Source of the DNA: Pleomorphomonas sp. T1.2MG-36
GTDB lineage: Bacteria > Pseudomonadota > Alphaproteobacteria > Rhizobiales > Pleomorphomonadaceae
Reading direction: 5' to 3'
Assembly: GCF_950100655.1 (NCBI RefSeq)
Contig: NZ_CATNLY010000012.1
Location: 744,001 to 808,000, forward strand
Length of the DNA stretch: 64,000 bases
Of the stretch, positions 54,025 through 61,036 are shown piece after piece. Position 1 is the stretch's first letter; each line of letters starts with the position of its first letter. The translations under genes and the position numbers were made by a program. Below the pieces are notes generated by a model. It was not told the origin of the DNA and made no database searches. It was given only the letters and a program-made list of their open reading frames with translations.

Positions 54025-54456
54025 ATGGAGCCTGATACCGCCAAGAAGAAAGTCCCCAACCCCGCCGACGTCCACGTCGGGACTCGCATCCGCATGCGGC
54101 GCATGATCCTGGGTATCTCGCAGGAAAAGCTCGGCCAGGCGCTCGGCGTGACCTTCCAGCAGGTTCAGAAGTACGAGAAGGGGGCGACCCGCGTCGGTGC
54201 CGGGCGGCTGTTGGCGATAGCCAACTATCTTGGCGTACCGATCGGGTATTTCTTCGAGACCAGCACGTATGACGCCCAAGAGGGGCGAGACACGGGTGGG
54301 GCGGTCGCCTCGGCGCCCGACGAGTTCGATCAGTTCGTGAAGAGCTCGGAAGGCATCAAGCTCAACAACGCCTTCCTCGGCATCAGCGATCCGACCGTTC
54401 GCCGACACCTGCTCGATCTCGTCATCTCCATGTCGCGTGCCAGTCACGACGGCTGA
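54025..54456 (+). CDS. XRE helix-turn-helix regulator (PhrR/PraR-like)
   Basis: 143-residue regulator. N-terminal helix-turn-helix (residues 16-75): GTRIRMRRMILGISQEKLGQALGVTFQQVQKYEKG, then RVGAGRLLAIANYLGVPIGYFFE. This resembles the alphaproteobacterial PhrR/PraR group (acid/stress response and quorum-sensing repressors). The C-terminal half carries a predicted helix after a short Gly/Asp-rich linker. It begins the regulatory cluster; the next gene ends 15 bp later on the opposite strand. Confidence 0.88.
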   Translation: MEPDTAKKKVPNPADVHVGTRIRMRRMILGISQEKLGQALGVTFQQVQKYEKGATRVGAGRLLAIANYLGVPIGYFFETSTYDAQEGRDTGGAVASAPDEFDQFVKSSEGIKLNNAFLGISDPTVRRHLLDLVISMSRASHDG

Positions 54457-54471
54457 ACGATACCGACACGC

Positions 54472-54711
54472 TCAATGGCGACGTCGACGCTCGTCGAGAT
54501 CGACGACGTCCGGATCCGTTTGGAGGGCCAGAAGGCCCGAGAGTTCCGCGTTGGCGAGGCCGAGCAGCAGAGCGGCGGACACGCTGACTTCCCGTGCCTG
54601 CGGCATCAGATAGTCGATCATCGTCATCATCGCCCGGATGTTCATGGGACGATGGACGTCACCGGCATAGGTCTGCTCGTCCATTATGGGGTCGTCGATT
54701 TTAGCGCTCAT
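54472..54711 (-). CDS. Hypothetical protein (79 aa), coupled to the double-GNAT gene
   Basis: Unrecognised small soluble protein. It is largely helical, with a Met-rich segment RPMNIRAMMTMIDYLMPQA followed by REVSVSAALLLGLANAELSGLL and an acidic/basic tail (DPDVVDLDERRRRH). The ATG overlaps the stop of the upstream GNAT gene (ATGA), so it is translated together with it. Could be a partner or inhibitor of that protein. Its core weakly resembles the 57-aa protein at 57117. Confidence 0.75.
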   Translation of the reverse strand: MSAKIDDPIMDEQTYAGDVHRPMNIRAMMTMIDYLMPQAREVSVSAALLLGLANAELSGLLALQTDPDVVDLDERRRRH

Positions 54712-55943
54712 TGATCACCCGATATTCTTTCCAGGATGCCGGGCCGATTCCACTGCCCTTCCGGCCGCACGAGCACGGCGGCGCCGGAGTCCGGCGACAG
54801 CGCGTCCTCGGCCGGAGGAACGACAAGATCGGCCTCGTAGTAGGTTTCGTCGGTCAGGTAGTTGATGCCCGTGCCTTCGCGCAGGACGAAACCGAAGTGC
54901 TGCCAGATGGGAGCGACATTCGCCGCGGTCTGGCCGTAGAAGCGCGTGTAGCCCTTGGTGCGGCAGAGTTCGATGCCCGCCTTCACCAGCTTCAACGCCA
55001 GCCGGCTCTTGCGGAAGCGAGGCAACACGGCCAACCGCTCCAGTTTCACGAACCCCGCAAAGTAGCGAATGCGCAGGCAGCCGGCCGGCTCGTCACCAAC
55101 GAACCCGAGCAGGTGCGTCGCGGTGAGGTCGTTGCCGTCGACATCCTCGGCGAAGGGAATGGACTGTTCTGCAAGGTAGGTGGCCGCCCGGATGGCATGG
55201 ACCATCAGAAGCTGGTTGACGTCGTGAACGACGGTAATGCCGACCGCATTGCGCCGGCCGGTCACGCCAGGGGCACCAGGGTGCCAGGTATCGTAGGGCG
55301 CGCGCGGCATATCGAACTCGTCCTGCCGCTCCTCGTCGGTCAGACGGCGGCAGGTCATGATACCGGGGGCATAGGTGTCGCCGTGCCGGGCGCCCATCGT
55401 GAAGCCGATGCTCTCGAACAGATGACGGGCCTTGTCGTTGGCAGCCTTGCAAAACACCGGCAAACCGCGGAACTTGTCCGATGTCAGGCGCTCCATGACG
55501 AGCGAGATGCCGCCGGCAATCGCCGGGGAGATGTAGATGCCCCAAAAGTAGATGGCGACCGGCTTCTCCCATTGACGGGCGATGAAGCGATCGGCAGGGG
55601 CACCGGTGTCCATGCGACCATCGAAGAGGGCATCGAGGCCATCCTGATTGAGAGACAGGAGACAAACGAAGCCGAGAGGCCCGTTGCCGGCCTTTTCGCG
55701 CCACTGACCGCGACCGATGGCCAGGATGGTGTCGGGATTGCGCGTGTAGATGCGCATGACGGTTTCAAGACTGGCAACCCCTTGAATTTCAGGGGTCGCT
55801 TTTCTCATGAGATCTGCAATAATTTCGCTGGAGGGGCTGAAGACAGAAATGTTCCGGCCGTATTTCGAGTAATCGATACGATCAATGTGGCGGGACGAAT
55901 AGAAATCGGGTGTTTGTTCGTAATTTCGAGCGTGAGAATTCAT
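54708..55943 (-). CDS. Double GNAT-domain protein of unknown substrate
   Basis: 411-residue protein with two acetyltransferase-like halves. The first (about 90-215) has YFWGIYISPAIAGGISLVMERLTSDKF and KARHLFESIGFTMGARHG. The second (about 245-390) has VHAIRAATYLAEQSIPFAEDVDGND, then GCLRIRYFAGFVKLERLAVLPRFRKSRLALKLVKAG; its CoA-binding loop lacks the usual Gly residues (RFRKSRLA for RxxGxG/A). Family-level fold call only. ATG at 55943 with GAGGGG upstream. Divergent from the LysR gene, 107 bp apart. Confidence 0.8.
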   Translation of the reverse strand: MNSHARNYEQTPDFYSSRHIDRIDYSKYGRNISVFSPSSEIIADLMRKATPEIQGVASLETVMRIYTRNPDTILAIGRGQWREKAGNGPLGFVCLLSLNQDGLDALFDGRMDTGAPADRFIARQWEKPVAIYFWGIYISPAIAGGISLVMERLTSDKFRGLPVFCKAANDKARHLFESIGFTMGARHGDTYAPGIMTCRRLTDEERQDEFDMPRAPYDTWHPGAPGVTGRRNAVGITVVHDVNQLLMVHAIRAATYLAEQSIPFAEDVDGNDLTATHLLGFVGDEPAGCLRIRYFAGFVKLERLAVLPRFRKSRLALKLVKAGIELCRTKGYTRFYGQTAANVAPIWQHFGFVLREGTGINYLTDETYYEADLVVPPAEDALSPDSGAAVLVRPEGQWNRPGILERISGDQ

Positions 55944-56050
55944 TGTTCCCCTCGTTCTCAATGAGCACATCCCATTTCAATCTGGATTTAAGCGTAGCCA
56001 ATTCGGAGGCTGTTCCGTGCATCCGATTTTGACGCGGGGTGGTGAGGTAG

Positions 56051-57064
56051 ATGGAACACGGTGATGGACCGGCCGAACTGGATATCAACTGGGATGACGT
56101 CCGCGTATTCCTGCTGGTTGCGCGACTCTCCAGCTTCCGGGCGGCGTCGTTGGAAAGCGGCGTGTCCGTCAACGCATTGCGTCGCCGCATCGAAACACTC
56201 GAGCACAAGATCAACGCCGTATTGCTGACCCGTTCGGCGAAGGGGGTCGAACTCACCGAAGAAGGACGCAAGGTGGAGGAAACGGCGCAGGCGATGCTAG
56301 AGCAGGCGCGCGCGCTTGCCCGCCTGTCGTCACGTTCCAAGCGCGGCCTTCGGGCCACGGTTCGGGTGGGAGCCACCGAAGGGCTCGGCGCCTTCTGGCT
56401 GGTTCCCCGGTTGGTGGATCTGTTCGAGCGCGCACCGGGGATCCAGGTCGATTTCCGCAACGACATGCGCGTGCCCGACGTGTCCGGACTGGAGGTGGAC
56501 ATCGCGGTCCAGCTCGAACGGCCGGCGGACGAGGAGTTGAAGGTGGTCCGCCTCGGCTGGCTTCACATCGTCCTGTTCGCCTCCGGCGACTACATCTCCC
56601 GCAATGGCATCATCGAGACGTCACAGGACATTCCCCGCCACCGCTTCATCGAGATCAGCGCTCCTCAGATCCAGAGCGGGGCACTCAAGGACGAACTGCC
56701 GGAAGACGACACTCGCAGCTTCGTCGCCTTGCGGGTCAACACCGCGTCGGCACAGGTCCTGGCCGCGACGCATGGCGCCGGCGTGACGGCTCTGCCGACC
56801 TACGCCCGGCTGGTGACCCATAAGCTGCACCACGTCGCCCGCGAATACATGCTGAAGCGGGATATCTGGCTCTGCTATCATCCTGATATCGTGGAATTTC
56901 GCCATATGAGGCAGACCATCGACTGGATCAAGGCTTCGTTCGATCAGGAGAAATACCCCTGGTTCGGAGAGGATTACCTCCCTCCGGACGAGATCGATCG
57001 TCTGGCGGCAAAGCGAGGGCTTGGCACCCTCTTTTCCGGCTTCAAGGACGAGCATAAGCTGTAG
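56051..57064 (+). CDS. LysR-type transcriptional regulator
   Basis: 337-residue regulator. N-terminal winged helix (residues 12-75): NWDDVRVFLLVARLSSFRAASLESGVSVNALRRRIETLEHKIN, then the linker helix VEETAQAMLEQARALARLS and an effector domain from RATVRVGATEGLGAFWLVPRLVD. The C-terminus is about 30 residues longer than usual (ending GTLFSGFKDEHKL). Divergent arrangement with the GNAT gene over 107 bp suggests that it controls that operon and itself. Confidence 0.88.
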   Translation: MEHGDGPAELDINWDDVRVFLLVARLSSFRAASLESGVSVNALRRRIETLEHKINAVLLTRSAKGVELTEEGRKVEETAQAMLEQARALARLSSRSKRGLRATVRVGATEGLGAFWLVPRLVDLFERAPGIQVDFRNDMRVPDVSGLEVDIAVQLERPADEELKVVRLGWLHIVLFASGDYISRNGIIETSQDIPRHRFIEISAPQIQSGALKDELPEDDTRSFVALRVNTASAQVLAATHGAGVTALPTYARLVTHKLHHVAREYMLKRDIWLCYHPDIVEFRHMRQTIDWIKASFDQEKYPWFGEDYLPPDEIDRLAAKRGLGTLFSGFKDEHKL

Positions 57065-57116
57065 GGCAGGTACCGAGGACGATGTCGCATCGTCTCGAGC
57101 ATCTTCGGAGATGGCG

Positions 57117-57290
57117 ATGGATGAGAAAGCTTTGACACTCAGCCACGAACTGCCCCGCCTTATCGAAGCGGCAAAGGCCCTCGAAGCTTCGGTACTCGTC
57201 ATGCTCCTCATGTCTGCCGAGCAGGAGCTTAAAAAGCAGCGCTCCGAACAGCATCAACCCCCGGAAAACGCGCCACCCGACCCCTTCTGA
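57117..57290 (+). CDS. Small hypothetical protein (57 aa)
   Basis: Unrecognised. A helical core (HELPRLIEAAKALEASVLVMLLMSAEQELKKQRSEQ) is followed by a Pro-rich tail (PPENAPPDPF). No signal peptide. Start at the second of two in-frame ATGs because GGAG lies 6 nt before it. Lies 52 bp after the LysR gene and may be co-transcribed with it. Similar pattern to part of the 79-aa protein. Confidence 0.55.
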   Translation: MDEKALTLSHELPRLIEAAKALEASVLVMLLMSAEQELKKQRSEQHQPPENAPPDPF

Positions 57291-57569: not shown

Positions 57570-59261
57570 ATGTCCGATAGTCGCCTCTCGACGAAATCCC
57601 TCGCCAAGTCCCCCACCGGCATCTCCGGCTTCGACGACCTCACGCTCGGCGGTCTTCCCAAGGGACGGCCGACGCTCGTCTGCGGCACCGCCGGGTGCGG
57701 CAAGACGCTTTTCGCAGCGACCTTTCTTGTTCATGGCGCGCGTGAGCTCGACGAGCCCGGCGTTTTCGTCAGCTTCGAGGAGCGCCCGAGCGATATTATC
57801 GAGAACGTGGCATCGCTCGGCTTCGACCTTGACGTGCTGATCGAGACAGAGAAGGTGGTCATCGAGCACATCGCGGTCGATCCGTCGGAAGTGGCTGAGA
57901 TCGGCGACTTCGACCTCGAAGGACTGTTCCTGCGTCTGGAACTTGCCATCGACTCCATCGGTGCCAAACGGGTGGTCCTCGACACGATCGAGAGCCTTTT
58001 TTCGGCCTTCACCAACCAGGCCGTTCTGCGTGCGGAAATCCGCCGCCTGTTCGACTGGCTGAAGGATCGCGGCCTCACGACGGTCATCACCGGCGAGCGG
58101 GGCGACGGAGCGCTGACCCGGCAGGGGTTGGAGGAATACGTCTCGGACTGCGTCCTGCTGCTGGATCACCGCGTCCAAAACCAGATTTCGACGCGACGGC
58201 TCCGGATCGTGAAGTACCGTGGCTCCAGTCATGGAACCAATGAGTACCCGTTCCTGATCGATCAGGGCGGCTTCTCGGTGCTGCCGGTCTCCTCGCTCGG
58301 CCTCAATCACCGGGTATTCGACGAGCGGGTGAGCACGGGCGTCGCCGATCTCGACGCCATGGTGGGAGGTGGCGGCTTTCATCGCGGGTCGAGCATTCTC
58401 ATTTCCGGCGTGGCCGGCTCGGGAAAATCGTCCCTTGCGGCGTGCTTCGTGGACGCGGCCTGCAAAGCGGGTCAGAAGGCCCTTTATTTCTCTTTCGAGG
58501 AGTCGCAGGACCAGACGGTTCGCAACATGCGCTCGCTGGGCATCGACCTCGGAAAGCACATCGCCGATGACAAGCTGAGATATGTGGCGGCGCGCCCAAC
58601 GTTCTACAGCCTTGAAATGCATCTCGCGCTGATGCTGCGGGAAGCGTTGGCATTCCGCCCGGATGTCTTCGTTCTCGATCCTTTGTCGGCCTTCACCGAA
58701 ACCGGGGACCGGACGGAAGTGCACGCCATGCTGCTGCGCATCGTCGACTTTCTGAAGTCGGAAGGCATTACCGGGGTTCTGACCCATCTCACCCAGAGCG
58801 GGCAGACGGTGATCGAAACCGAGTCCGGACTTTCCTCGCTGATGGACGCCTGGATCCTGCTGCTCAACCGCGAGTCCAACGGCGAGTTCAACCGAGAGCT
58901 CTACCTGCTCAAGGCGCGTGGCCTCCGCCACTCCAACCAGGTGCGGGAGTTCGTGATGGAGGAGGATGGCATCCGTCTCGTGTTGCCCTACGTTGGCCAA
59001 GGCCAAGCCCTGACCGGGGCGGCGAGACGCATAGCAGAGGCCGAAGAGCGGCGACGGGAACAGCGGCGCGAGATCGAGGCCGAGAAGGCTCAGCATTTGA
59101 TCGAGCAGCGACGGCGGCGCACGCTGGCTCAAATCGAGGTTCTACGGTCCGAACTGGAAGCCGACGAGGCCGAACTGCAGGGGCTCGTGCAATTGGAAAC
59201 GGATCGCCGCACACAAATTGAGACGGATGAAGCCGAGATGCGCAGATCTCGCGGCAACTGA
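57570..59261 (+). CDS. kaiC: KaiC-family tandem RecA ATPase
   Basis: 563-residue protein with CI and CII RecA domains. Walker A motifs GTAGCGKT (39-46) and GVAGSGKSS (280-288); catalytic Glu pairs FEERP (69-73) and FEESQ (309-313). The CII phosphosite position of cyanobacterial KaiC (Ser431/Thr432) corresponds to Ser422-Ser423 in GLSSLMDAWI, so it may autophosphorylate on two Ser. A C-terminal coiled coil (485-563, AEERRREQRREIEAEK) replaces the A-loop region and may bind the downstream partner. No kaiA nearby, as is usual outside cyanobacteria. Confidence 0.93.
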   Translation: MSDSRLSTKSLAKSPTGISGFDDLTLGGLPKGRPTLVCGTAGCGKTLFAATFLVHGARELDEPGVFVSFEERPSDIIENVASLGFDLDVLIETEKVVIEHIAVDPSEVAEIGDFDLEGLFLRLELAIDSIGAKRVVLDTIESLFSAFTNQAVLRAEIRRLFDWLKDRGLTTVITGERGDGALTRQGLEEYVSDCVLLLDHRVQNQISTRRLRIVKYRGSSHGTNEYPFLIDQGGFSVLPVSSLGLNHRVFDERVSTGVADLDAMVGGGGFHRGSSILISGVAGSGKSSLAACFVDAACKAGQKALYFSFEESQDQTVRNMRSLGIDLGKHIADDKLRYVAARPTFYSLEMHLALMLREALAFRPDVFVLDPLSAFTETGDRTEVHAMLLRIVDFLKSEGITGVLTHLTQSGQTVIETESGLSSLMDAWILLLNRESNGEFNRELYLLKARGLRHSNQVREFVMEEDGIRLVLPYVGQGQALTGAARRIAEAEERRREQRREIEAEKAQHLIEQRRRRTLAQIEVLRSELEADEAELQGLVQLETDRRTQIETDEAEMRRSRGN

Positions 59262-59267
59262 TAGGGA

Positions 59268-59558
59268 ATGTCGATGTCGACGGAAGAGGCCTCCACGCGC
59301 AAGCTGATCCTTTATGTTGCGGGCGAAACCCCCAAGTCCCTGGCAGCCATCTCGAACCTCGAGCGTATCTGCCGGGAACATCTGCCTGGAAAGTATCGAA
59401 TTGAGGTCATCGACCTCAAGAAGAACCCGCAACTCGCCCGCGAGCACAAGATCGTGGCGATTCCCACTCTCGTCAGAGAGTTGCCCATTCCCATCCGAAA
59501 GATTATCGGCGATCTTTCCGATGAGCAGAAGGTTCTGATCAACCTCAAGGTCGAATGA
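59268..59558 (+). CDS. kaiB: KaiB
   Basis: 96-residue thioredoxin-like clock protein: KLILYVAGETPKSLAAISNLERICREHLPGKYRIEVIDLKKNP and AREHKIVAIPTLVRELPIPIRKIIGDLSD are the family hallmarks (the fold-switching core). Starts 6 bp after kaiC with AGGGA before the ATG; a second ATG two codons later could also be used. It ends overlapping the kinase gene (ATGATG). Confidence 0.95.
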   Translation: MSMSTEEASTRKLILYVAGETPKSLAAISNLERICREHLPGKYRIEVIDLKKNPQLAREHKIVAIPTLVRELPIPIRKIIGDLSDEQKVLINLKVE

Positions 59559-61036
59559 TGCGGAACTCTCAGGAACAGGCGCTGCAAAGCCTCATCGACG
59601 ACCTCAGGCAGCGGGCGGCCGAGGCCGAGGAGACGCTGGCCGCCATTCGCGACGGCAGTGTGGACGCCGTGGTGGTCGGAGGGGAAGGCAAGGACGAGGT
59701 TCTCGTCATCGGCGACGACGCCTCGGCGTTCAGAAACTTCATGGAGGCCATGGAGCCCGGTGCGGTCGCCGTCGATTCCGCCGGACGCCTTCTCTATTCG
59801 AATGCCCGCTTCCGTCAGATCTTCGCCGAGGACTGGGATCGCTTGAAGGGCAAGCTCCTCTCCGAGATCCTTCCCGGGCCGGCGTCGCAACTCATCGGCC
59901 GACTGGTCAGCCCCGACAGTCACGATGCGGCGCCCGTTTCGGTGTCCTTCCTTGAGCGAGGCGTCGAACGCAACTACCTCGTTTCCGCCCGCCCCGTGCA
60001 TCTCGGAACGGTGCGCGGCTTTGCCGTCACCTTCTCCGACCTGACCGAACGCGTCCGTGCCGAAGCGGCGGAGCGAGCGCAACGGATCGCCAATGCGATC
60101 ATCGCCTCGGCGAACGAGGCGGTCATCGTCTGCGACCGCACGCTCACCATCACCCACGCCAACTTCGCCGCCGAGGCGCTGTCGACCGAGAAGCTGGTGG
60201 GCACACGGCTCGATGCGGCAATTCCGCTCAAGTTTCCCGATGCGACCGGCATCCTGGAGATCGGCGAGCTGGTCGAGTCCTCGCTCTCCGGAACGCCGCT
60301 TCGCAGCATCGAAGCCTTCGCTCCCATGTCGCCCGGCGCGCGGGACGTTCTCGTCAGCGCCGCGCCGCTCAACATATCGGACGACGGGCCCGAAGGCTGC
60401 GTGCTGACCCTGGTCGACCTCTCCCAGCGCAAGAAGGACGAGCGGCAGATGCATCTGCTGATGCGCGAGCTCGACCATCGCGTCAAGAACACCTTGGCGC
60501 TGGTGCTGTCGATCAGCAAACGCACGGCCGCCAGCGAGGAAACGCTGGAAGGGTTTCAAGGGTCGTTCAGCGGCCGCATCGAGGCCCTCGCGGCCACCCA
60601 CAACCTGCTCGCCGGCGCCTCCTGGGAGAGCCTGTCGCTGCGCCAGATCTTCAGCGCCGAGGTATCGCCCTATACGGAAACCAGCAGCGACCGCATCAAC
60701 ATCACCGGCGCCGATCTCAGCCTCTATCCGCGTGCCGCCATCGCGCTGGGCCTGATCTTCCACGAACTCGCAACCAACGCGACCAAATACGGGGCGCTAT
60801 CGGCGGAAACGGGCTCAATCGACCTGGAAATTCACCCCAAAACGGATGCGCCCTACGTCGAGGTAACGTGGACGGAGAAGGACGGACCGCCGGTGAAGTC
60901 CTTCTCCCGCAAGGGTTTCGGGCATACCGTCATCGCGCGGAGCCTCTCCTACTCGCCACATGGCGGCACTACGCTGGACTTCGAGCCGACAGGCGTCATC
61001 TGCCGCATCCGGATTCCAGTATCGGACGTGGCGTAA
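59555..61036 (+). CDS. PAS-PAS HRxxN histidine kinase linked to KaiBC
   Basis: 493-residue soluble kinase. A conserved N-terminal coil (ETLAAIRDGSVDAVVVGGEGKDEVLV) is followed by two PAS domains (about 60-165 and 172-290) and the phosphoacceptor box MRELDHRVKNTLALVLSISKRT with His308 in the HRxxN signature. The ATP domain is intact: FHELATNATKYGALSAETG and GFGHTVIARSLSYS. Translationally coupled to kaiB, so it is the probable clock output or input kinase. PhyR is a plausible target because HRxxN kinases serve PhyR. Confidence 0.92.
   Translation: MMRNSQEQALQSLIDDLRQRAAEAEETLAAIRDGSVDAVVVGGEGKDEVLVIGDDASAFRNFMEAMEPGAVAVDSAGRLLYSNARFRQIFAEDWDRLKGKLLSEILPGPASQLIGRLVSPDSHDAAPVSVSFLERGVERNYLVSARPVHLGTVRGFAVTFSDLTERVRAEAAERAQRIANAIIASANEAVIVCDRTLTITHANFAAEALSTEKLVGTRLDAAIPLKFPDATGILEIGELVESSLSGTPLRSIEAFAPMSPGARDVLVSAAPLNISDDGPEGCVLTLVDLSQRKKDERQMHLLMRELDHRVKNTLALVLSISKRTAASEETLEGFQGSFSGRIEALAATHNLLAGASWESLSLRQIFSAEVSPYTETSSDRINITGADLSLYPRAAIALGLIFHELATNATKYGALSAETGSIDLEIHPKTDAPYVEVTWTEKDGPPVKSFSRKGFGHTVIARSLSYSPHGGTTLDFEPTGVICRIRIPVSDVA

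Follow-up and report, generated by a model that had tools for sequence, protein, structure and literature searches.

A two-domain GNAT gene module with a PraR paralogue and coupled small proteins in Pleomorphomonas, a possible LuxI-independent variant of the CinI-CinS-PraR arrangement

In Rhizobium leguminosarum the small protein CinS is reported to be co-expressed with the acyl-homoserine lactone (AHL) synthase CinI and to bind the regulator PraR (PMC4149787), and in Methylobacterium fujisawaense the protein MmaP, of 59 amino acids (aa) and encoded behind mmaI, is likewise reported to bind PraR (PMC10790750). Here we analyze a module of five genes, respectively encoding an XRE-type regulator, a 79-aa protein (p79), a two-domain GNAT protein, a LysR-type regulator and a 57-aa protein (p57), at positions 54025-57290 of a 64,000-nucleotide stretch of Pleomorphomonas sp. 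T1.2MG-36 (contig NZ_CATNLY010000012.1, positions 744,001-808,000, forward strand; below, the window is this entire stretch). As far as CinI-CinS-PraR is laid out in PMC4149787, the module resembles it in joining an acyltransferase-type gene with a small protein encoded alongside it, whose presumed target is a PraR-type XRE protein. It differs in that the AHL synthase CinI is controlled by a LuxR-type regulator, whereas the module has an ElaA-like GNAT with two domains and a divergent LysR gene, and in that its XRE protein is a dedicated paralogue encoded beside the enzyme; the likeness to CinS is one of arrangement and not of CinS sequence. With MmaI-MmaP-PraR, as presented in PMC10790750, the module shares the position of the small protein right behind the enzyme gene, and small open reading frames (ORFs) of two LuxI loci (L144 and L150) match those of the module; unlike the module, that system is of the LuxI/LuxR type and its PraR is encoded elsewhere. 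As the enzyme and the sensor are of other families than in the CinI and MmaI systems, the module would be a variant of their logic and not a member. We tentatively propose, at a little under an even chance, that it is an acyltransferase-centered regulatory module which reuses the CinI-CinS-PraR logic with a non-LuxI enzyme under LysR.

The GNAT gene (54708-55943, minus strand, 411 aa) and the LysR gene (56051-57064, plus strand, 337 aa) diverge from an intergenic region of 107 bp (55944-56050). The p79 gene (54472-54711, minus strand) lies directly behind the GNAT gene, its start overlapping the GNAT stop in an ATGA at 54708-54711, and converges with the XRE gene (54025-54456, plus strand, 143 aa), the two stops being 15 bases apart; the p57 gene (57117-57290, plus strand, start uncertain) follows LysR. 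We took the ATG at 55943 as the GNAT start, which agrees with the starts of the closest homologues, a longer ORF beginning at 55970 being less likely. A preliminary description made from the nucleotide sequence had noted both this five-gene arrangement and the overlap, and the two hold up well: all five ORFs were recovered in place by tblastn in each of the nine Pleomorphomonas-type loci (L028-L036), a constancy of position which argues that they are not chance ORFs, and the ATGA is kept in eight of these loci, with a 4-base offset in L028.

Within the genus, a full-length GNAT gene is present in 11 of 14 genomes (the window's own genome counted), LysR at E<=1e-60 in 11 and XRE with at least 77% identity in 11. 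These are the same 11 genomes, with adjacent coordinates, while G004, G006 and G007 lack all three genes; because the three are jointly present or absent, the GNAT-LysR-XRE set is a real unit. G006 retains a distant gene for the C-terminal half of the GNAT only, next to a LysR gene and an 80-aa ORF. For a wider survey we kept 80 of 251 related stretches (all counts out of 80 refer to these), with genes, including hydrolase and split GNAT genes, called by a simple codon-score script. A divergent LysR gene lies no more than 600 bp upstream of GNAT in 69/80 loci, namely all nine of the Pleomorphomonas type and 60 of the 71 others. Ten of the remaining 11 carry on the opposite strand a gene of cluster c14, identified as PAS_5 by Pfam in the two members scanned, and the eleventh (L051) is cut by a contig end and shows a partial LysR match. 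A PraR-like XRE gene was found in the GNAT flank (tblastn, E<1e-8) in 36/80 loci, as compared to three such genes in the entire 5.2 Mb genome of the window's own strain. Thus the expectation that these genes stay together in relatives is borne out for GNAT and LysR and fails for XRE in more than half of the loci. In one locus (L050:2601-5713) GNAT is adjoined by a row of two XRE and two LysR genes, which looks like a duplication of the regulator pair.

The relation to PraR was examined through sequence identity and gene neighborhoods. The window XRE protein (Pfam HTH_3, E 3.1e-13) is 53% identical to a second copy in the same genome (G000:C23), which has metK downstream and lnt upstream, both neighbors being recognized by eye. 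A metK-downstream neighborhood is what PMC10790750 reports for PraR. The window gene lies beside the GNAT module and not upstream of metK, and since the metK-linked copy sits elsewhere at 53% identity, we regard the window XRE, by sequence and neighborhood, as a PraR paralogue linked to the module and not as PraR itself. The earlier suggestion that it belongs to a group with quorum-sensing repressors is thereby narrowed to the PraR group.

Further support for the proposal comes from the small proteins encoded in the module loci of relatives. As a comparison set we used 73 LuxI loci (30 + 3 + 40), in two of which (L140 and L130) the sequence as read gave no open LuxI frame. A profile of LuxI-linked ORFs was assembled from similar small ORFs chosen by eye in 15 of the 73 loci, and the hidden Markov model (HMM) searches were run on all ORFs without such picking. 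The module profile ('hs') was seeded with 14 of the 28 small ORFs that follow the hydrolase gene found in many relatives, six ORFs of cluster c31 and one from L109, the other 14 of the 28, Methylobacterium ORFs of cluster c8, being excluded; these seeds match the profile by construction because it was built from them. In hhalign comparisons the module small ORFs matched the LuxI-linked ORFs with a probability of 91 and a score of 40.2, which none of 120 shuffles reached (best 11.3; reversed profile 8.0). When an HMM built from the module ORFs alone was run against 2,049 ORFs from the window and the LuxI loci, ranks 1-11 were all taken by LuxI-downstream ORFs, one locus appearing twice (best E 0.00047). 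An iterated profile search over 7,710 ORFs, from a set thinned so as to keep 2 of the 9 Pleomorphomonas-type loci, gave 36 matches below E 0.01. Its top 46 comprised 27 ORFs 3' of GNAT or hydrolase genes (seeds included), five 3' of LysR (one of them p57), 11 behind LuxI, one from a split-GNAT locus and two elsewhere in module loci. By these results the module small ORFs of relatives are homologous to the LuxI-linked small ORFs, the comparison being with the latter and not with CinS. The genome of M. fujisawaense DSM 5686 has a 59-aa ORF directly 3' of a LuxI gene (L144); judging by strain, length and position, we take this as likely to be the mmaI locus and its small ORF as likely to encode MmaP. 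It was absent from the ORFs scored in the 2,049- and 7,710-ORF searches; aligned together with that of L150, it matched the module small ORFs with a score of 24.5, reached by 0/40 shuffles (best 10.4). In L183, two overlapping small ORFs of this family (647-919 and 870-1238) stand in tandem behind a single LuxI gene.

Neither of the window's own small proteins has a Pfam match above cut-off. p79 has 68 homologues, those that carry a name being annotated solely as hypothetical. A profile of 65 p79 sequences scored 21.9 against the module ORFs, above all of 100 shuffles (best 18.4), and 21.7 against the LuxI-linked ORFs of L132, L133, L135 and L136, above 40/40 (best 16.0). In the iterated search a p79 homologue from Bosea (L045) ranked 38 with E 0.25. 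p79 likely belongs to the small-protein family by its position, and sequence is suggestive of the same, making it a candidate CinS/MmaP-like partner of XRE. p57 was the best-ranked ORF of the window in that search (37 of 7,710) and sits directly 3' of LysR, as do scoring family members in L054, L088 and L043. Its score against the module ORFs was reached by 1/100 shuffles and that against the LuxI-linked set by 10/120 (0, 2, 2, 3 and 11 of 40 for the five subsets); its membership is only suggestive, and it is a possible second small partner. Direct homology of p79 and p57 to each other was considered and is not supported (27/100 shuffles reach the score; hhalign 0.2%).

Several observations weigh against the proposal. 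Against the mixed LuxI-linked set the p79 score is reached by 4/120 shuffles; among five LuxI-linked subsets it is reached by 0, 0, 1, 4 and 26 of 40, the last two being L144/L150 and L153/L162/L163. p79 ranks only 174 of 2,049 with the first module HMM and 62 (E 10) among the 7,710 ORFs of the iterated search, and the E value of p57 in the latter is only 0.21. Helical small proteins can also resemble one another. M. fujisawaense DSM 5686 itself has a GNAT-hydrolase module (L066), the small ORF of which, of cluster c8, gave no match: the Methylobacterium c8 ORFs showed no link to the module family (20/100 shuffles reach the score), and we do not include them in it; their score against the LuxI-linked ORFs is reached by 3/120. 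Furthermore, 44/80 loci have no PraR-like XRE gene inside the examined flank.

The GNAT protein itself was divided, on the basis of Pfam, alignment, models and fold matches, into an N-terminal half (residues 1-225) and a C-terminal half (226-411). Pfam GNAT scores above its cut-off in the C-half only, and FR47 matches the N-half below its own; four genomes, with the same gene context, encode each half as a gene of its own, side by side. By fold matches to the model and by sequence the C-half is closest to SACOL1063, YjcF and ElaA, which places it in the ElaA/YjcF group of GNATs. Unlike these single-domain chains of 140-153 aa, the module protein has an additional GNAT domain, and in its coenzyme A (CoA) loop arginine or lysine mostly takes the place of the first glycine (74/89 aligned rows; glycine in 3/89). 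The C-half thus departs from Q/RxxGxG/A, which we take to be the expected CoA-loop motif of ElaA/YjcF GNATs. The loss of this glycine had been remarked upon in the preliminary description and proves to be a trait of the whole family; decay of the second half was considered and rejected, because the change is found throughout the family, in which many residues are invariant across the 89 rows. Acyl transfer is the activity we would predict from the sequence, in keeping with the earlier view of the core protein as acyltransferase-type.

LuxI-type AHL synthases share a GNAT-related fold, and some LuxI loci are like the module loci in having a neighboring small ORF of one family. The possibility raised earlier that the module enzyme is itself of the LuxI type did not survive: unlike those synthases (PF00765), the window GNAT has no PF00765 match at E<=1 in the Pfam scan, and on this ground we reject LuxI membership. 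No LuxI-type chain appeared among the structure-match rows shown for the two GNAT models, a result that leaves room for a distant relation. The genome encodes a separate LuxI-type synthase (G000:C54:66457-67002; L116), with no listed ORF in the small size range searched directly behind it, and LuxI is patchy in the genus (4/14 genomes). A well-characterized orthologue of the GNAT protein, which the preliminary description had named as grounds for abandoning its idea of a new system, did not turn up in the database and literature searches made. The module was not described in the open-licence literature searched, though absence there is no proof of its being unpublished.

The window LysR protein has both HTH_1 and LysR_substrate domains above the Pfam cut-offs, and the LysR-proximal half of the divergent region is well conserved in an alignment of 10 sequences. 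We claim no conserved LysR box, because the lone self-complementary T-N11-A site (55955) falls in the poorly conserved part. Downstream of p57, on the same strand (window 57570-61036), are genes for a KaiC-like protein (563 aa), a KaiB-like protein (96 aa) and an HWE histidine kinase; the KaiC match is absent by tblastn in L030.

Based on gene order, the overlap, co-occurrence, PraR paralogy and the homology of the relatives' small proteins to LuxI-linked ones, the proposed circuit can be outlined as follows. LysR would control the divergent GNAT operon; one acyltransferase, formed by the two GNAT domains, would make or modify a small molecule, possibly sensed by LysR; p79, made in step with GNAT via the ATGA overlap, would bind and titrate the neighboring PraR-type XRE in the manner of CinS and MmaP, with p57, from the LysR side, as a possible second titrating protein; and switching on the GNAT operon would relieve XRE action. 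Acyl transfer, LysR control and binding of the small protein to XRE are all predictions, and a diffusible signal would be the most conjectural part of all. A bolder version holds that this is quorum sensing independent of LuxI/LuxR, in which an ElaA-type acyltransferase, either fused or of two subunits, produces a new acylated signal with LysR as receptor, a dedicated PraR paralogue is switched by CinS/MmaP-type small proteins whose production is coupled to that of the synthase, and the hydrolase of relatives trims or removes the signal; this we consider unlikely, roughly a one-in-five prospect.

The hydrolase, which together with the split GNAT form and the small-protein link to LuxI-linked ORFs adds to the preliminary description, bears on a more ordinary explanation. 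In 37/80 loci a gene for an isochorismatase-like hydrolase (PF00857, Pfam E 1.8e-20, with PDB profile matches as well) lies 3' of GNAT; it is not present in the window, and the genome gave distant matches only (best E 2.1e-14). In an alignment of 12 rows the first aspartate is invariant, and at the positions that we take, from general knowledge plus PDB-profile alignments, to be the canonical lysine and cysteine there are, respectively, arginine in 11/12 (histidine in L109) and alanine in 9/12, with serine, asparagine and threonine once each and a cysteine one residue later in 11/12. As the usual catalytic lysine and cysteine positions are altered, the reaction may be something other than amide hydrolysis. 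Such a gene fits a LysR-controlled detoxification or catabolic operon, in which LysR senses a compound, the GNAT pair acylates it, the hydrolase of relatives processes it, and the XRE and small proteins are local regulators with no signal involved. LysR divergent from its target genes is a common arrangement, which also suits this explanation, as does the dispensability of the module, since G004, G006 and G007 live without it. It leaves unexplained the coupled small ORFs of relatives that resemble LuxI-downstream ORFs as well as the adjoining PraR paralogue, and we rate it as rather unlikely, albeit a serious contender at somewhat under one chance in three.

In seven loci (L052, L065, L072, L081, L092, L097 and L101) the GNAT gene stands inside a small biosynthetic-looking cluster with a PAS_5-type gene, an AMP-binding ligase, a condensation protein with TubC_N and MFS transporters. 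The ligase and condensation-domain protein of these loci raise the possibility that the GNAT serves as an acyltransferase for loading or tailoring in the making of a small natural product, using carrier- or ligase-bound acyl donors, with the regulators just timing production. As neither a ligase nor a condensation gene turned up next to the window genes in the ORF list or by Pfam, and the LysR form is far commoner (69/80 loci), this appears the least probable of the explanations, and distinctly improbable in itself.

If the proposed regulatory module, with its acyltransferase, coupled small proteins and PraR paralogue, is real, the PraR arm of quorum sensing in alphaproteobacteria would not be bound to LuxI, and the small XRE-binding proteins would make up a broader family, found also in the company of another kind of acyltransferase. 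This would provide a testable role for an as yet unassigned ElaA-like group of enzymes and explain why a number of anonymous small proteins exist, and it might point to a new acylated signal in genera including Methylobacterium, Bradyrhizobium, Bosea, Jiella and Pleomorphomonas.

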